A stretch of 64,000 nucleotides of DNA from Asterias amurensis (taxonomy: Eukaryota; Echinodermata; Asteroidea; Forcipulatida; Asteriidae), in assembly GCF_032118995.1 (NCBI RefSeq), contig NC_092653.1:24571202-24635201 (forward strand), given 5' to 3'. Of the stretch, positions 4,401 through 30,064 are shown one piece after another. Position 1 is the stretch's first letter; each line of letters begins with the position of its first letter. The notes beneath the pieces were generated by a model, which made no database searches, was not told where the DNA came from, and was given only the letters and a program-made list of their open reading frames with translations. Position numbers and translations under genes: made by a program.

Positions 4401-7347
4401 TCACAACTCAACGAGATAGTTGATTTACCTTGACTTGTATTATCAAAAAGCAATTGTTCTATACAATCGTTTTAAAACCAATCTCGAAATTTTAATATGG
4501 ATTTTAGTCAAACCATATTGAATTACTGTTTAAGTTAAAGACACTGTACACTATTGGTAATTGTCAACGACCAGTCTTCTCACTTGCTGTATCTCAACAT
4601 TTATGCATAAAATAACAAACCTGTGGAAATTTGTGCTCAATCGTTCGTCAAAGTTGCGAGATAATAATGAAAGAAAAAACACCCTTGTCACACGAAGTTG
4701 TGCACTTTCAGATGCTTGATTTCTCGAAATCAAATTCGTGGAAAATTACTTCTTTTTCGAAATTTACGTCACTTCAGAGGGAGCCGTCTCTCACAATGTT
4801 TTATACTATCAACCTCTCCCCATTACTCATTACCAAGTAAGGTTTTATGCTAATAATTATTTTGAGTAATTTCTAATAGTGTGCATTGCCTTTAACGAGT
4901 AATGAGTGAATTATATCAGAAATTAATTTATCTTTTTCAATGGTTGAATCTTGCATTTGTTTACGAGTTTGTAACTACATACCTGAGTTAACCAAACTCC
5001 CACCTCTACTGTCTGATATCGCTCACTCTGTGAAGAAAAAGACAAAATAATGCAATTGTTTTAGTCATGTGTCAATCAGGCACCATGGGCACTGGATGGA
5101 CATATTTTGGTAGTTGTCAAAGACCAATATTCTCATTTGGTGTAATATAACATATCATTTGCACACAATAAAAAAATCTGTGAAAATTGTTGACTCAATT
5201 GGTCATCACAAGATGTGTTTGCTTTCAGACGCATAATAAAAGGCTGCAGGCCTAATATGTTTTTTTAAATTACCCAATTTCTCAAAAACTACGTTACTTC
5301 AGAGGGAACCGTTTCTCAAAATGTTTTTTACTATCAAAAGCTATACATTGCTCATTATCAAGTCAGTTTTCATGCTAACTGTTATGCTGTGTATTTACCA
5401 GTAATGTCCAGTGCCTTAAATCCTGACATTATAGTGTGGATAATACTATGGAATCAATTGGACCGTTTGGTGCTCAACATGGTACATTGGGTCCATCTTT
5501 TTGTGTCTAAACTGTGGGTTTCATTGGAGGGGGGGGGGGGGGGGGACTTCTGGGCAAGAGGGAGGTAGTCTGCAAAAATATGGGAACATCGGGGGATAAC
5601 CTCTGTCCCATATCGTGCATGGTGTAATTCAGATAAGCATTTACCAATTCAATGACTTGGATGAGTGTCAGACCAAATACCACCGTTGTAACATGTGATA
5701 AGTTATATACAGGTCGGGTTGATTGGAAACCGTAGCCCTCGAGTAGCTCTTTCAGAAGTACATTCTGGGCACTCATCTGACGACATTCTACACAATAAAG
5801 TAATAACATTTTATTATTCATGGTTGATTGATAACAAACAAAGTCATCACATAGCAGCCATCTGCTGAATTACGACCAATTGCACAAATAAATAAGTAGA
5901 AGTAATATTTATAAACGGCATAATATAATATGCACACACACAAAAAAATACACAAATATCAAATAACAAATACAAACAAAAGGACTATACGAAAGTACTA
6001 GGCCTACACCATGTATAAAAAAACTAAAAGTCTGTAAAGAAAAATATATGTAGGCCTATTTACAAGTACATACACTCAAAACACCAAAATGGTGATCAAC
6101 TGTAGCTAGCTGGGAAAACTGTAACTTAATGGCATTTTCATTTGACCATGTAAGGAAAAGCACTATTAGTATTAGCATGTCTCTAGCTTGGAACGTACAT
6201 TAGGAGTAGCCAATAATGAGTTACAATTAAAACTGGGCCATTAAATTCACCTCTAATTGTTTAGGAATCCACTCTCGAAATTCAGTTCGAAATGGGCTAA
6301 CCTAATTTGAGGCAAAAGTGTGGCGGCGTTGTTTCAGATCTTGCATTTTAAAAGCATGTATTAAGACAAGACCATTATGCTTTAGACTCAATTTCGCTAA
6401 GCAAAACAGTTAGCCTTTTTCATACGTCCAAGTGCATTGGGTTATTTTACTTAAAGGCAATGGACATTATTGGTGATTACTCAAAATAATTATTGCCATA
6501 AAACCTTTCTTGGTGACAAGTAATGGGGAGAGTTTGATGGTATAAAACATTGTGAGAAACGGCTCCCAGTGAAGTGCCATAGTTTTCGAGAAAGAAGTAA
6601 TTTTCCACGAATTTGATTTCGGACCTCAGATTTATAACTTGAGGTATCGAAATCAACCATTTAAACGCACACAACTTCGTGTGACAAGGGTGTTTTTTCT
6701 TTCATTATTATCTCGCAACTTCAAAGAACGATTGAGCTCAAATTTTCACAGGTTTGTTATTTTATGCATATGTTGAGATACACCAACTGTGAAGGCTAGT
6801 CTTTGACAACTACCAATAGTGTCCACTGCCTTTAAGACCTGGATGCCAGACAGGAACGGCATATTCTAACAGATAGTCGAATGAAACCCACATAAGTACA
6901 AGTAGATTACACACAAAAGGTGTTACCGCAAATAATTGATACCTCACCATGCAATGCCTCAGAAAAAGGAATCAATGACGATAGATAAAGCATGTGAAAA
7001 TACATGGTTTGTATTTTTCGATGAAAGACGACTAATTTAATTCAAACATTCCAACCGTCACACCCTAGACCGGAAAACTGATTTTTATTTTTCATTATTG
7101 AACAACTTACAGTAACCCTACTGAAGCCGAATAATTGAAGGACAAACAAACAACAATTATCTATTATTTAAAACAGGTCTGCACAAACAGAAACCAAAGC
7201 ACACACCATACCCGTCCACTTAGACGTAAGATTTAGGCCTAGGTCTATGTTTAAATGGTTTAAATCATGAAATAAAATCTTACCGCTCAAAGACGAAGAC
7301 GCTGTAATCAACAGGAGAGGCAGAACAATCCACCGCATAATTTCCAT
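1421..7347 (-). CDS. Cys-loop ligand-gated cation channel subunit (nAChR type), paralogue 1
   Basis: Six coding exons on the minus strand: 7284-7347, 5645-5787, 4983-5027, 3915-4024, 2725-3260 and 1421-2001. All have GT/AG borders and the frame closes to 492 residues. Residues 1-21 are a signal peptide (start MEIMRW). The Cys-loop is C154-C168 with the FPFD core and 13 residues between the cysteines; loop A is WLPD at 112-115, and the loop B tryptophan is about W175. TM1 is about 237-259, TM2 268-288 (preceded by GEK, the cation-selective signature), TM3 301-325 and TM4 near the C terminus. Family knowledge: a pentameric plasma-membrane channel subunit. Oddities: loop C (about 216-228) lacks the vicinal CC pair of alpha subunits, the usual loop A tyrosine is His119, and the outer-ring 20' glutamate is Thr. 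It therefore looks like a non-alpha or divergent subunit and its ligand is unknown. The introns carry several miniature elements. A possible poly(A) signal is AATAAA at 1154-1159 (minus). Confidence 0.93.
4130..4371. mobile_element. Palindromic miniature element with 3-bp AAT flanks
   Basis: Inverted ends GGGTGCGTTCGTTTAGCTTC continue inward for more than 35 bases (to GGGTCGACCC). AAT flanks both sides. About 242 bp, noncoding, in an intron of the first receptor gene. A left-end fragment of the same family lies at 52803-52839. Ends and size fit a non-autonomous DNA transposon; superfamily uncertain. Confidence 0.7.
4539..4891. mobile_element. TTAA-flanked miniature element, family A (diverged)
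   Basis: TTAA on both sides and ends matching AGGCAGTGGACACTATTGG with several changes. Carries the family landmarks CACAAACCTGTG-type and CGTGTGACAAGGGTG blocks in reverse order relative to 6455-6831, so it is inverted. Intron of the first receptor gene. Confidence 0.75.
5095..5415. mobile_element. Family A miniature element, badly decayed
   Basis: Internal blocks of family A (GACCAATATTCTCATTTGGTG, TCAAAACTACGTTACTTCAG-like stretches) and a right end GTCCAGTGCC before TTAA. The left end is not clear and the centre is reduced. Confidence 0.5.
5529..5545 (+). repeat. Poly-G run (17)
   Basis: Uninterrupted G17 in an intron of the first receptor gene. Confidence 0.95.
6455..6831. mobile_element. 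TTAA-flanked miniature element, family A
   Basis: Flanked by TTAA (6451-6454 and 6832-6835). Inverted ends AGGCAATGGACATTATTGG and CCAATAGTGTCCACTGCCT. Central palindrome around GACCTCAG..CTTGAGGT. About 377 bp, inside intron 1 of the first receptor gene. Confidence 0.85.
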
Positions 7348-23887: not shown

Positions 23888-24041
23888 AGACAATGGATGG
23901 ACACTATCGGTAATTGTCACAGACCAGTCTTCTTACTTGGTGTATCTCAACATATGCATGAAACAACAAACCTGTGAAAGTTTGAGCTCAATCGGTCGTC
24001 GAAGTGAGTAAATAATGAAAGAAAAAACACCCTTGTCACAC
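23888..24041. mobile_element. Family A miniature element, left fragment of a split copy
   Basis: Begins after TTAA (23884-23887) and reads family A sequence up to TTGTCACAC, where the 4,588-bp element begins. The missing half resumes at 28630 with the same nine bases. Confidence 0.85.
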
Positions 24042-24913
24042 TAGCCTTGATCAAGGCGCTACAACCAGCCGCGACCCGCAAAATCCCAGTCCCAATCACT
24101 GAATTCCGCCAGCGCACTCCCATACACAACACAGTGCATATAATACGGGTACAGTGTATTTACACACCTGTACCTACTGTACATACACATTACCATCTAC
24201 ATGTATATGGTACACGTACGGTACATGAGTATTTCTAAAGTAGCGCCTTGATGGTTCTGTAACAGCAAAAATTTAGGGCGGAGCTCATTATGCTAATATT
24301 TACTAACAAACCGGTCTCATTGGTTGTTGGTTGACCTATAAACTCTCGCTGCGATATCCATCACAACGTTCTCCAAGCACACGCACGTGCTCTCCGACGT
24401 AACAACAAACCTTGTAGCTGCTGCGCAAAAAATTGCGATGGCGGCGGGCGCGAGGGAGAAGTTGTGTACTAAGTTGTGTACTGTATATCAATTGTACGGT
24501 GTATAATTTGCAACAGTACATCGTGGCACAGCTGCAGAAGCTTTCAACAAAATAAAACAACCAGGTTAATGCACCAATCATGGATTTAGAAATAATAAGG
24601 AAGAAAATTAGACCGTACATTGTGTGAAATGTGTTTGAGAAAGGTTCAAAAAGTATCAAGGTGTCATGGGTTTCCGGCAATCAATGGCAACTTGGTTAGA
24701 ATTCTTAGATGTTGGGCATACTCATCCTTGAAGCACAAAAACTTCATTACTGTTTTCCCCATTTCAGACCAGATGAGATAAGAAAACCAGCTGTTTATTT
24801 TGTCTAGACATATTATTTGTAACGTTTCTCGCGGTAAATCAAAGTTGGGGATCGAAAATAAATTATGTGTTGGTCGAAAACATACCAGACGGTTGAAGGT
24901 GGCGTGTGGCTTA

Positions 24914-25281
24914 AAGCCATTGGACCCTTTCGGTACAGAAAAAAAAAAAAAAAGTTCACAGATTTACAAATAATTTACAGGGTTTATAGAAGGTAATGGT
25001 GAAAGACTTCTCTTGAAATATTAGTCCATGAAATGCTTTACTTTTTGAAAAAACGGTAAAACAATATAAACTCTCGTTAACGAGAATTACGGATTTGTTA
25101 TAAACACATGTCATGACACGGCGAATTGCGCGAAAACAGGAGTGGGTTTTCCCGTTATTTTCTCCCGACTCCGATGTCCGATTGAGCCTAAATTTCCACA
25201 GGATTGTTATTTTATATATAAGTTGTGATACACGAAGTGTGGGACTTGGACAATACTGTTTACCGAAAGTGTACAATGGCT
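24914..25281. mobile_element. TTAA-flanked miniature element, family B, inside the larger element
   Basis: TTAA at 24910-24913 and 25282-25285, with the central palindrome present. Very close to the copy at 10953-11313 read in reverse. It lies within the 24042-28629 element and therefore entered it later or was carried by it. Confidence 0.88.
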
Positions 25282-25618
25282 TTAACAACAACTACAAGTA
25301 AAGATCAATTTCATAAACTAACTCTTGCCATACTACCACACTACAACGTTACACTTATAGTAAAGCAGCTTCCCATTCAGGGACAAATCTACCAGCTACA
25401 TTGTACTTATGATGCTAGTCCTCGTGTTATAATGAAACACAACACAACGGGGCCAAGGAACCCCTCCTCTCTTCGAAGTATTTCGTCACCGTACCGACCG
25501 AACGAGGCTTGTCCGGCTCACACCGGTGGCCTGTATACCGTCCGGCAGCGCATTCAGACCCATTATACATCATAGCGATTCCCATTCCATACAGCTAACG
25601 TACAGCGCACACACACAC

Positions 25619-26839
25619 AAGTCAATGGGAAACTACACAACCATACACAAGTCAATGGGAAACTACACAACCATACACAAGTCAATGGGAAACTACACAA
25701 CCATACACTAGTCAATGGGAAACTACACAACCATACACAGGTCAATGGGAAACTACGCCACCATACATAAGTCAATGGGAAACTACACAACCATACACAA
25801 GTCAATGGACACTTCACAACCATACACAAGTCAATGGGAATTGACACAACCATACACAAAACAATTGGAAACTACACAACCATACACATGTCAATGGGAA
25901 ACTACACAATCATAGACCAGTCAATGGGAAACTATACAACCATACACAAACTCAATGGGAAACTACACAACCATACACAAGTCAATGGGAAACTACACAA
26001 CCATACATAAGTCAATGGGAAACTAAACAACCATACACAGGTCGATGGGAAACTACACAACCATACACATGTCAATGGGAAACTACACAATCATGCATAA
26101 GTCAATGGGAAACTACACAACCATACACAAGTCAATGGACACTTCACAACCATACACAAGTCTATGGGAATTGACACAACCATACACAAAACAATGGGAA
26201 ACTACACAACCATACACATGTCAATGGGAAACTACACAACCATACACAAGTCAATGGGAAACTACACAACCAAACACATGTCAATGGGAAACTACACAAC
26301 CGTACACAAGTCAATGGACACTTCACAACCATACACAAGTCAATGGGAATCGACACAACCATACACAAGTCAATGGGAAACTACACAACCATACACTTGT
26401 TAATGGGAAACTACACAACCATACACCAGTCAATGGGAAACTACACAACCATACACAAGTCAATGGGACACTTCACAACCATACACAGGTCAATGGGAAT
26501 TGACACGACCATACACCAGTCAATGGGAAACTATACATACATACACAAGTCAATGGGAAACTACACAACCATACACAAGTCAATGGGAAACTGCACAACC
26601 ATTCACAAGTCAATGGGAAACTACACAACCATACACAAGTCAATGGGAATTGACGCAACCATACACAAGTCAATGGGAAACTACACAACCACACACCAGT
26701 CAATGGGAAACTACACAACCAAACACAAGTCAATGGGACAACCAAACACAAGTCAATGGGAAACTACACAACCATACACAAGTCAATGGGAAACTACACA
26801 ACCATACACATGTCAATGGGAAACTACACAACAATACAC
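25619..26839 (+). repeat. 30-bp minisatellite, left array
   Basis: About 41 head-to-tail units beginning GTCAATGGGAAACTACACAA. Variants (29-bp GGACACTTC unit, GGGAATTGAC unit) recur in order about 330 bases apart (25801 and 26131), showing higher-order structure. As 30 is divisible by three, long frames stay open on both strands; these are not genes. Confidence 0.95.
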
Positions 26840-26848
26840 CAGTCAATG

Positions 26849-27537
26849 TAGCCTTCCTCAAGGCAGTCAAATTATTCACTTCGAAAAAAGACCGCCGTTG
26901 TATAAAACCCACCTGTATTCACTACGCGTAACATCCCCCCGACATGAAGCCCCCGTACACTATCCGCATGCAGAGGCCATCAGGCCGACAGCCTTGTAGG
27001 GTCTGTGTTGAAGCCACTGACCTCATTACTATAATAAGCGAAGAGTTCCCACGGTCAGCTCATTACCATAATGCCCGCGAAAGACGAGACATGTCTACAT
27101 CATCACACACCACCACCAAGGACGCTCAGCGAGCATGATAGGCGTGCGTGATTGGACGTCAACATGAATAATTCATTTGCCTCCCATCCTGTGTTGGCTG
27201 ATAGGTCTGACAAATGATATACATATTCATGAGCTGCATACAAGCATATCCGAGAGCCCCCCCCCCCCAATTTTTTCCACTAGTGGAATTTTTTCAATAC
27301 AACACATTAAACCCAGAAAATACAGACCCGACAAAGCTATTGGCCTGCGGCCTCCGCATGCGGTTAGTGGTACGAGTGCGATGACTTGTGTAAACAGTTT
27401 TCGTACGAGTACAAGCTGACAGTGTGTATACGGTTGGGTCATGCGATGTGATCGCTCGCATCACAAACAGGGTATATGGGTGGGTTTACAGCGGCATCTT
27501 TTCCGAGCGAACGGTGCGACAGCCTTGAGCAAGGCTA
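26849..27537. mobile_element. 689-bp nested relative with 9-bp target duplication
   Basis: Left end TAGCCTTCCTCAAGGC and right end GCCTTGAGCAAGGCTA are inverted and matching continues for about 60 bases. CAGTCAATG, part of a minisatellite unit, is duplicated at 26840-26848 and 27538-27546. Noncoding. Confidence 0.88.
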
Positions 27538-27546
27538 CAGTCAATG

Positions 27547-28395
27547 GGAAACTACACAACCATACACAAGTCAATGGGAAACTACACAACCATACACAAG
27601 TCAATGGGAAACTACACAACCATACACAAGTCAATAGGAATTGACACAACCATACACCAGTCAATGGGAAACTATACAACCATACACAAGGGAATGGGAA
27701 ACTACACAACCATACATAAGTCAATGGGAAACTACACAACCATACACAAGTCAATGGGAAACTACACAACCACGCACACACGAATGGGAAACTACACAAC
27801 CATACACAAGTAACGGGTAACTACGCAACCATACACATGTCAATGGGAAACTACACAACCATACACAAGTCGATGGGAAACTACACAACCGCACACAAGT
27901 CAATAGGTAACTACTCAACCATAAAAAGTCAATGGGAAACTACACAACCATACACAAGTCGATGGGAAACTACACAACCATACACAAGTCAATGGGAAAT
28001 TACACAACCATACACAAGTCAATGTGACACTTCACAACCATACCCAAGTCAATGTGACACTTCACAACCATACACAAGTCAATGGGAAACTACACAACCA
28101 TACACAAGTCAATGGACACTTCACAACCATACACAAGTCAATGGGAATCGACACAACCATACACAAGTCAATGGGAAACTACACAACCATACACTTGTTA
28201 ATGGGAAACTACACAACCATACACCAGTCAATGGGAAACTACACAACCATACACAAGTCAATGGGACACTTCACAACCATACACAAGTCAATGGGAAACT
28301 ACACAACCATACACAAGTCAATGGGAATTGACACAACCATACGCAAGTCAATGGGAATATACACACCCATACACAATTCAAATGAGACACTACAC
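27547..28395 (+). repeat. 30-bp minisatellite, right array
   Basis: About 28 units continuing the array beyond the nested element. A block of about 185 bases (28102-28287) matches 26303-26487 including rare variants. Confidence 0.95.
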
Positions 28396-28629
28396 AACCA
28401 CGCACACGGATGTGGCATGATTGGTAGCAGTAATACGTCATTCTCAATCGCGTCTGTGATTGGCCAAGGTTTAGAATGATATGCCCAGATCATGCACGCC
28501 CTTTCATCGGAATTCCGATAAAGCTGTTACAGACCCATCAAGGCTCTTGTTTGAGCCACGTGTGCGAAGTTGAAAGTAGAAAGACACGACCGTACTCACG
28601 ACTTCGCCAACAGCCTTGAGTCAAGGCTA

Positions 28630-28864
28630 TTGTCACACGAAGTTGCGTGCGTTTAGATGGTTTGATTTCGAGACCTCAAGTTCTAAACTTGAGGTCTTGA
28701 AATCAAATTCGTGGAAAATTACTTCTTTCTCGAAAACTTCTCCACTTCAAAGGGAGCTGTTCTCACAGTGTGTTATACCACCAACCTCTCCCCATTACTG
28801 GTCACCAAGTGAGGTTTTATGCTAATAATTATTTTTTAGTAATTACCAATAGTTTCCACTGCCT
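28630..28864. mobile_element. Family A miniature element, right fragment of a split copy
   Basis: Starts with the duplicated TTGTCACAC and continues family A through the central palindrome to the end CCACTGCCT before TTAA (28865-28868). Together with 23888-24041 it forms one complete copy around the insertion. Confidence 0.85.
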
Positions 28865-29198
28865 TTAAACAACAAGAGGGCGCCATTTCAGGCAATAATG
28901 TGTTAACCATAGTGTAGATTAAAAGCCACAACCACAGACCTGGAACCAAGTCTAGCGACCGTCTAGCAACCAAAGAAAACCGATTTAGTCATTTTTCAAA
29001 AACATGTACACAGCTCTGAAAAAAAATAAATATTCAACATCGCCCTCTTGTGGTATGTACTGGGCCCCTGTCTTTATCCGCAAGGATAAAAGATAAGCAA
29101 GGATGTGGTATAATAGGAAGGCACTAAAAACTAACCTCTACAGCGGTTCGGAACTTTTCGTGTGCTCTCGGTACGGTTCGCGACGATGCCCCACGCAG

Positions 29199-29765
29199 CA
29201 GGTTTGGGGAGTTGTTACATAAAAGTGGACTAACCAGAAGGACCTGGTTGTTAATGATTTCATGTCTAAAAGATGCATGTACTGATTCCTAGACCTCTTT
29301 ATTCAAGTACATTTGTAGCAGCAGGTTTGGGGAGTTGTTACATTAAGAGTGGACTAACCACTGGGACCTGGTTGTTTATATTTTCATGTTTAAAAGATCC
29401 CAGCACTGCTTCAGACCTCTTTATTCAAGTACATTTGTAGCAGCAGGTTTGGTGAGTTGTTACATAAGAGTGGACTAACCACTAGGACCTGGTTGTTTAT
29501 ATTTTCATGTCTAAAAGATCAGTACTGCTTCAGACCTCCATATTAAAGTACATTTGTAGCAGCAGGTTTGGGGAGTTGTTACATAAGAGTGGACTAACCT
29601 CTGGGACCTGGTTGTTTATATTTTCATGTTAAAAAGATGCAAGCACTGCTTCAGACCTCTTTATTCAAGTACATTTGTAGCAGCAGGTTTGGGGAGTTGT
29701 TACATAAGAGTGGACTAACCACTAGGACCTGGTTGTTAAATATTTTCATGTCTAAAAGATGCAAG
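29199..29765 (+). repeat. Tandem repeat, about 120-bp unit, five copies
   Basis: Units start GCAGCAGGTTTGGGGAGTTG and end ATTCAAGTACATTTGTA; first and last copies are the most diverged or incomplete. Noncoding. Confidence 0.92.
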
Positions 29766-30064
29766 CATATGCAAAATGACGTCATAAGGTCATTCTCGCT
29801 CGGGTATTGCATGCATGGTGGACACGGTACTTGCTTGGTAATGTTGGTGTAGAATTTGGGAGGTCAAATGTGAATCTAACGCCGGTTTCACGCCGGTCTA
29901 TGGCGTTATTCACGTGCCTCGAAGTGTGACGTCAGGTGTTCAGGCTAAGTTTCAGCAAGTTATAATGCAATACATGTATAGACCATAGACTGGTACCATG
30001 TCTTTATCGGCAATGATAATGACAGGTATATGTACACACATAGGCTACTATGGGTATATTTTTT

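Follow-up and report, generated by a model that had tools for sequence, protein, structure and literature searches.

A non-autonomous, minisatellite-carrying DNA transposon with a 9-bp target duplication, lodged in a TTAA miniature element of Asterias amurensis

What kind of element interrupts a TTAA miniature element in a 64,000-nucleotide stretch of the Asterias amurensis genome (assembly GCF_032118995.1, contig NC_092653.1, positions 24,571,202 to 24,635,201, forward strand; hereafter the window), and what moved it there? The original prediction placed at 24033-28638 a 4.6-kb tandem-rich element with inverted ends that had split its host and left a 9-bp duplication. This span is confirmed to the base, as the 9-mer TTGTCACAC is present at 24033-24041 and again, identically, at 28630-28638 (both on the + strand). 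Between the two copies lies an element of 4,588 bp (24042-28629, + strand; family 1), with a left tip TAGCCTTGATCAAGGC (24042-24057, + strand) that includes the palindrome GCCTTGATCAAGGC, and a right tip GCCTTGAGTCAAGGCTA (28613-28629, + strand); both tips recur elsewhere in the genome, the left as an extended pattern and the right in relatives of the element, and the boundaries are common to the copies found there. Since such tips occur in hundreds of places and are accompanied by 9-bp duplications, the element is a non-autonomous cut-and-paste DNA transposon.

The host can be recognized from what remains on either side. Joined with one 9-mer, the two flanks match five uninterrupted copies of the host elsewhere in the window (22793-22418, 6825-6451, 37201-36809, 4534-4895 and 21341-20963; 78-88% identity), each alignment running through the junction; the 9-mer there is TTGTCACAC in four and TGGTCACAC in the fifth. 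The family 1 element thus landed in, and split, an older TTAA miniature element, as had been proposed. The left boundary is borne out by a genome search with the left end, in which the best 40 of 423 candidates gave 39 matches besides the window, starting at query positions 2-10; 27 of these start at position 10, the first base of the element, and five at position 9, the earlier starts being due to shared target bases. In the corresponding search with the right end, 37 of 41 rows end at 28607, and the relatives run on from there with TATACTGTTC... to the same right tip. The junction 28607-28608 therefore lacks about 0.1 kb relative to them, the window copy being 116 bp shorter than the copy at L022 (L numbers denote loci and C numbers contigs).

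Copies of the element were sought in its own genome (491,506,623 bases, 23 contigs). A 28-base left-tip pattern with at most three mismatches was matched 370 times (176 + 194), and its reversed control not once, so these ends are far from unique to the locus. The same is true of a sister element, family 2, whose window copy (689 bp, 26849-27537, + strand) sits within the minisatellite of the family 1 element and was delimited by its genome relatives and tip matches. Its tip, again with at most three mismatches, was matched 2,344 times (1,187 + 1,157; control 0), and near full-length relatives were present among the best 40 of 1,389 first-look candidates. The family 2 inverted ends are about 60-80 bp long and imperfect (about 74-81% identity), and folding of the strand 26849-27538 yields −113 kcal/mol, whereas 20 shuffles average −79.7 (z −9.35). 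The window copy is flanked by CAGTCAATG at 26840-26848 and 27538-27546 (+ strand), a duplication that derives from the minisatellite unit. At two further loci, L085 and L086, right-tip-like sequence follows a family 2-like left tip after 182-185 bp, but the 9-bp repeat is lacking; further in lie tandem arrays of 127-129 bp.

The bases just outside the copies were tabulated for 22 insertions with different targets. These comprise 10 family 1 and 12 family 2 elements, among them the two of the window. An exact 9-bp repeat was found in 21 of them (L049 being scored with its last tip base taken as G), L045 has one mismatch, and none extends to 10 bp; when flanks were swapped among elements, 0 of 462 pairs matched with at most one mismatch. 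Together with the 370 left-tip matches, this excludes chance or a local artefact. Kept outside the count of 22 were L034 (a perfect 9-bp repeat), L012 (8 of 9 bases repeated, with bases lost at the junction), loci with one end only, 24 loci with an odd tip context (26 places), and eight copies that share the duplication GGTGTCCGT (L015-L021 and L037). Among the 24 odd-context loci, a second tip and a 9-bp repeat with at most one mismatch were seen in 10 (L066, L068, L071, L073, L074, L078, L079, L081, L082 and L084); L070 and L083 had two mismatches, L065 and L076 had three, and the other 10 had no such repeat. Older or odd-context copies thus have poorer repeats than those tabulated, and nearly all testable copies carry the 9-bp repeat. 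There may also be a weak, symmetric target preference for T at position 4 and A at position 6, each of which was present in 18 of 44 cases when both strands were taken into account.

The eight copies sharing GGTGTCCGT belong to a set of nine (L014-L021 and L037; C18, 5.15-6.89 Mb) that represent a single family 1 insertion: all carry the same duplication, and they are distributed over 1.7 Mb, meaning that the whole locus was amplified later. The window locus itself is adjoined on its right by a 121-bp tandem array (29195-29767), the repeat of which appears to be the target of the family 1 copy at L012.

The boundaries of the original prediction stood, but beyond the missing 0.1 kb it had overlooked two nested insertions, namely the family 2 element and a 367-bp insert (24915-25281, + strand) between TTAA at 24911-24914 and 25282-25285. 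This insert, with ends AGCCATTG... and CTTTCGGTA, belongs to a TTAA family other than that of the split host. Four relatives compared at this site read GGCTTAACAAC without the insert. Because the window copy holds it, alignments with other copies skip this stretch. In 28 of 36 loci the gap runs from element position 873 to 1236 or 1243, and in L022 from 874 to 1271; the other seven do not reach the site. The order of events was as follows: the TTAA host was followed by family 1, and once the array had at least two units, family 2 entered it; the 367-bp insert also arrived after family 1. The family 1 element was inserted into the older miniature element, duplicating nine target bases, and the TTAA insert and the sister element, whose tips are of the same kind, later landed inside it.

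The minisatellite, delimited by Tandem Repeats Finder at 25615-28400 (+ strand), has a 30-bp unit, ACACAAGTCAATGGGAAACTACACAACCAT, in about 70 units forming two blocks (25615-26848 and 27539-28400). It ends 229 bp before the right end of the element. Family 1 copies that lack it measure 1,483-1,592 bp (one at L034 has 813 bp), and the longer copies hold the array, as in L003/L089 with 68 copies of the same unit; both ends are common to the copies without any array and those with 68 units. In its left 870 bp, the window copy shares 93.8-94.7% identity with seven long copies, compared with 89.2-90.3% for six short ones, and identities within the groups are 96.6-98.3% (long) and 97.1-99.1% (short). 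The array may thus be regarded as cargo that would have grown within the element from 0 to about 70 units and been spread by transposition. The unit length is a multiple of three, so that long frames such as (SMGNYTTIHK)n remain open; two frames of this type gave no domain match above cut-off, and we take the open frames through the minisatellite to be an accident.

The ends had been correctly described as inverted, yet each tip is also complementary to itself, a property that had been missed. In family 1 the left tip has GCCTTGATCAAGGC and the right tip GCCTTGA-G-TCAAGGC, the two agreeing as inverted repeats over about 16 bp only. In family 2 the form is GCCTTG-CT-CAAGGC, the left tip of the window copy being mutated to GCCTTC-CT-CAAGGC. 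Owing to this self-complementarity, the ends are direct and inverted repeats at once, and a whole element might collapse to a single 18-bp palindrome within an old duplication. Exact matches to TAGCCTTGNTCAAGGCTA occur at three places in the genome (L075, L076 and L084). At L084 (1501-1518), the bare 18-bp palindrome TAGCCTTGCTCAAGGCTA stands within a perfect 9-bp repeat, AATAGTTCT, and is perhaps the smallest remnant of these elements; for this single case, the simplest reading would be that slippage or repair deleted everything from one tip to the other, so that a single palindrome stayed behind. L075 and L076, two copies of one repeat, were rejected as remnants, having no 9-bp repeat at the palindrome. 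Tip-like sequences at L064, L077 and L080 were likewise set aside as probable gene exons, readable as A-L-I-K-A-L-E after a splice-acceptor-like TAG.

What, then, moves these elements? Taken as a whole, the data are best explained by a non-autonomous transposon moved in trans, with a source in the Mutator superfamily, perhaps Rehavkus-like (a probability of about 0.6). A transposase acting in trans would recognize the TAGCCTTG...TCAAGGC tips and cut the target with a 9-bp stagger, and it is this stagger, together with a minisatellite just inside the 3′ end, that makes Mutator the most likely source. In PMC6446971, Mutator (MULE) target duplications are given as 8-11 bp, and Rehavkus is characterized by a 9-bp duplication, a PHD finger, a minisatellite before the 3′ inverted repeat and inverted repeats of 26-400 bp. 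The 9-bp duplications seen here (21 of 22 perfect) fall within both descriptions. The minisatellite before the 3′ end is present in the array-bearing family 1 copies and absent from the 1.5-1.6-kb copies and from family 2; conversely, the family 2 ends have a length within the Rehavkus range.

Several observations weigh against this assignment. The family 1 inverted repeats, at about 16 bp, are shorter than those listed for Rehavkus, and the length of a duplication does not by itself fix a superfamily. No transposase with TAGCCTTG tips was found among the tip matches listed, which comprise about the first hundred places from each of three pattern searches (370, 2,344 and 907 places), so an intact partner may be missed. 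The non-autonomous character of the element, for its part, is supported by the open reading frames: in accordance with the earlier statement that no transposase frame could be recognized in its interior, seven of the 39 frames listed in the window were scanned, and none gave a Pfam match above cut-off. The genome contains 12 matches to PF10551 (MULE; L051-L062), none with full-form TAGCCTTG tips within about 1.5 kb, where only loose matches (at most three errors) were seen, and two of these loci, L057 and L059, had no such tips in wider flanks either. A tblastn comparison of the PHD-MULE proteins of the genome with the elements gave no convincing match (best E 0.36), a further point for non-autonomous elements. 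In relatives of the PHD-MULEs, located by position only, no TAGCCTTG tips were found as ends. Finally, wherever the ends of a PHD-MULE could be placed, they read GGA(A)TGTCGG and not TAGCC.

These PHD-MULEs, whose presence in the genome counts in favour of the Mutator reading, merit a description of their own. L051-L057, L060, L087 and L088 encode MULE transposases with sub-threshold PHD matches and have a Rehavkus-like look, without TAGCCTTG tips. L052 and L056 both have a MULE match above cut-off and PHD matches of 20.5 and 20.4 bits (cut-off 24), L056 alone adding a FLYWCH match of 19.4 (cut-off 23.6); L060 and L057 are near-identical to this L052 and L056 set. In the single copy that was followed from end to end (L057, together with L087 and L088), the inverted ends contain a 16-bp minisatellite, GTCACTTCGTACCCAA, and the flanks CCCCGCATT / CGCCGCATT agree in 8 of 9 bases when read by eye; the 3′ ends of L051, L052, L055 and L060 begin with GGATGTCGG. 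In a separate set (L059, L061, L092 and L093), sub-threshold CG-1 and Ulp1-type matches accompany a MULE protein within a long open frame, next to about 10 units of a 115-bp tandem repeat.

Three other sources were considered. P elements make 8-bp target duplications, and not one of the 22 insertions has an 8-bp junction repeat, whereas 21 have 9 bp; an origin in the P superfamily, in the manner of Galileo, is thus improbable, even though the genome has 23 matches to the P-type domain PF21787. One of these matches, at C1:29715210, has a family 2 tip 1.2 kb away, at C1:29713942; on C6, family 2 copies are found about 4 kb from two P fragments that appear to be a single locus in duplicate. The C1 association, the one of these that could be tested, did not hold: its tip pairs with an opposite tip at 29714232-29714258 and therefore ends a short element of its own, about 319 bp long, outside the P gene. 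Galileo foldback copies have repeats in long ends (PMC3573991). Merlin, the other group named in the original prediction, would accommodate 9 bp (its duplications being 8 or 9 bp) and has six PF12762 matches in this genome, four without internal stops; internal tandem repeats are also on record for it in PMC8101967. The same paper has Merlin tips starting with 5′-GG, while those found here start with TA, and two of the six Merlin copies, read for about 1-1.5 kb per side, showed no TAGCCTTG tips in that stretch, where the Merlin ends were not located. Merlin is accordingly disfavoured, to the point of being very improbable, and the Mutator/foldback alternative of the original prediction stays an inference, no transposase with these tips having been found.

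It is unlikely that a superfamily outside those tested, or an undescribed one, moves the elements, with the self-complementary tip as its putative binding site. This would agree with the sharing of that tip by two otherwise different families, and with its absence as an own end from the MULE and Merlin loci read and from the one testable P locus; on the other hand, few transposase loci were read beyond 1.5 kb, and non-autonomous families often outlive their partner. A search for KDZ gave no match, its controls being likewise silent, and is therefore uninformative. We consider it doubtful that both parts of a more specific proposal hold, namely that an undescribed transposase recognizing self-complementary tips moves the elements and that whole elements can collapse to an 18-bp palindrome as at L084. 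A Mutator-related source acting in trans is the most likely reading, though not a proven one.

Among echinoderms, the sea urchin TU elements are foldbacks that also carry tandem repeats; these are 15 bp long and occupy each of the two long inverted ends, and the TU duplications measure 8 bp. In family 1 the array lies on one side only, and not in both long inverted ends as in a foldback. Sea urchin foldbacks, with a reference from 1983, are also mentioned in PMC4079207, which, in its account of Tetris from Drosophila virilis, describes non-autonomous copies only, with 8-10-bp duplications and tandem repeats feeding satellite DNA, much as here, and places Tetris in Mutator from duplication length and foldback form; its inverted ends, however, reach 1,735 bp, compared with about 16 bp in family 1 and 60-80 imperfect bp in family 2. 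The Tm1 Mutator/Foldback elements of root-knot nematodes (PMC3169594) are alike in having mostly 9-bp duplications without a clear target consensus, variable tandem repeats, and MITE-like (miniature inverted-repeat) and nested copies, but differ in that some members encode a putative transposase, none having been found here, and in that their tandem repeats lie inside both inverted ends rather than on one side. Rehavkus shares the 9-bp duplication and the minisatellite or tandem repeats by an inverted repeat (PMC6446971), with satellite monomers in the inverted ends of Rehavkus-1_TC (PMC10218199); the present elements differ from it in that no PHD-finger transposase was found with their tips, in the approximately 16-bp inverted repeat of family 1 and in their self-complementary tips. 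Family 1, non-autonomous with a 9-bp duplication and a cargo minisatellite, is of a kind already known from Rehavkus, Tm1 and Tetris, the family itself being apparently new; a limited literature search gave no match of family 1 and its self-complementary tips to a named family, and we do not claim their absence from print.

Taken together, several nested insertions could be put in order at one locus, and two abundant, related families with 9-bp duplications are present in an echinoderm, where a 30-bp minisatellite has been carried around the genome by transposition. If the PHD-MULE elements are indeed Rehavkus, the group would reach beyond the insects and annelids named in PMC6446971. The self-complementary tips suggest a testable route by which elements may be reduced to 18-bp remnants and, if elements do take it, 18-bp palindromes within 9-bp duplications would preserve a hidden trace of earlier insertions.

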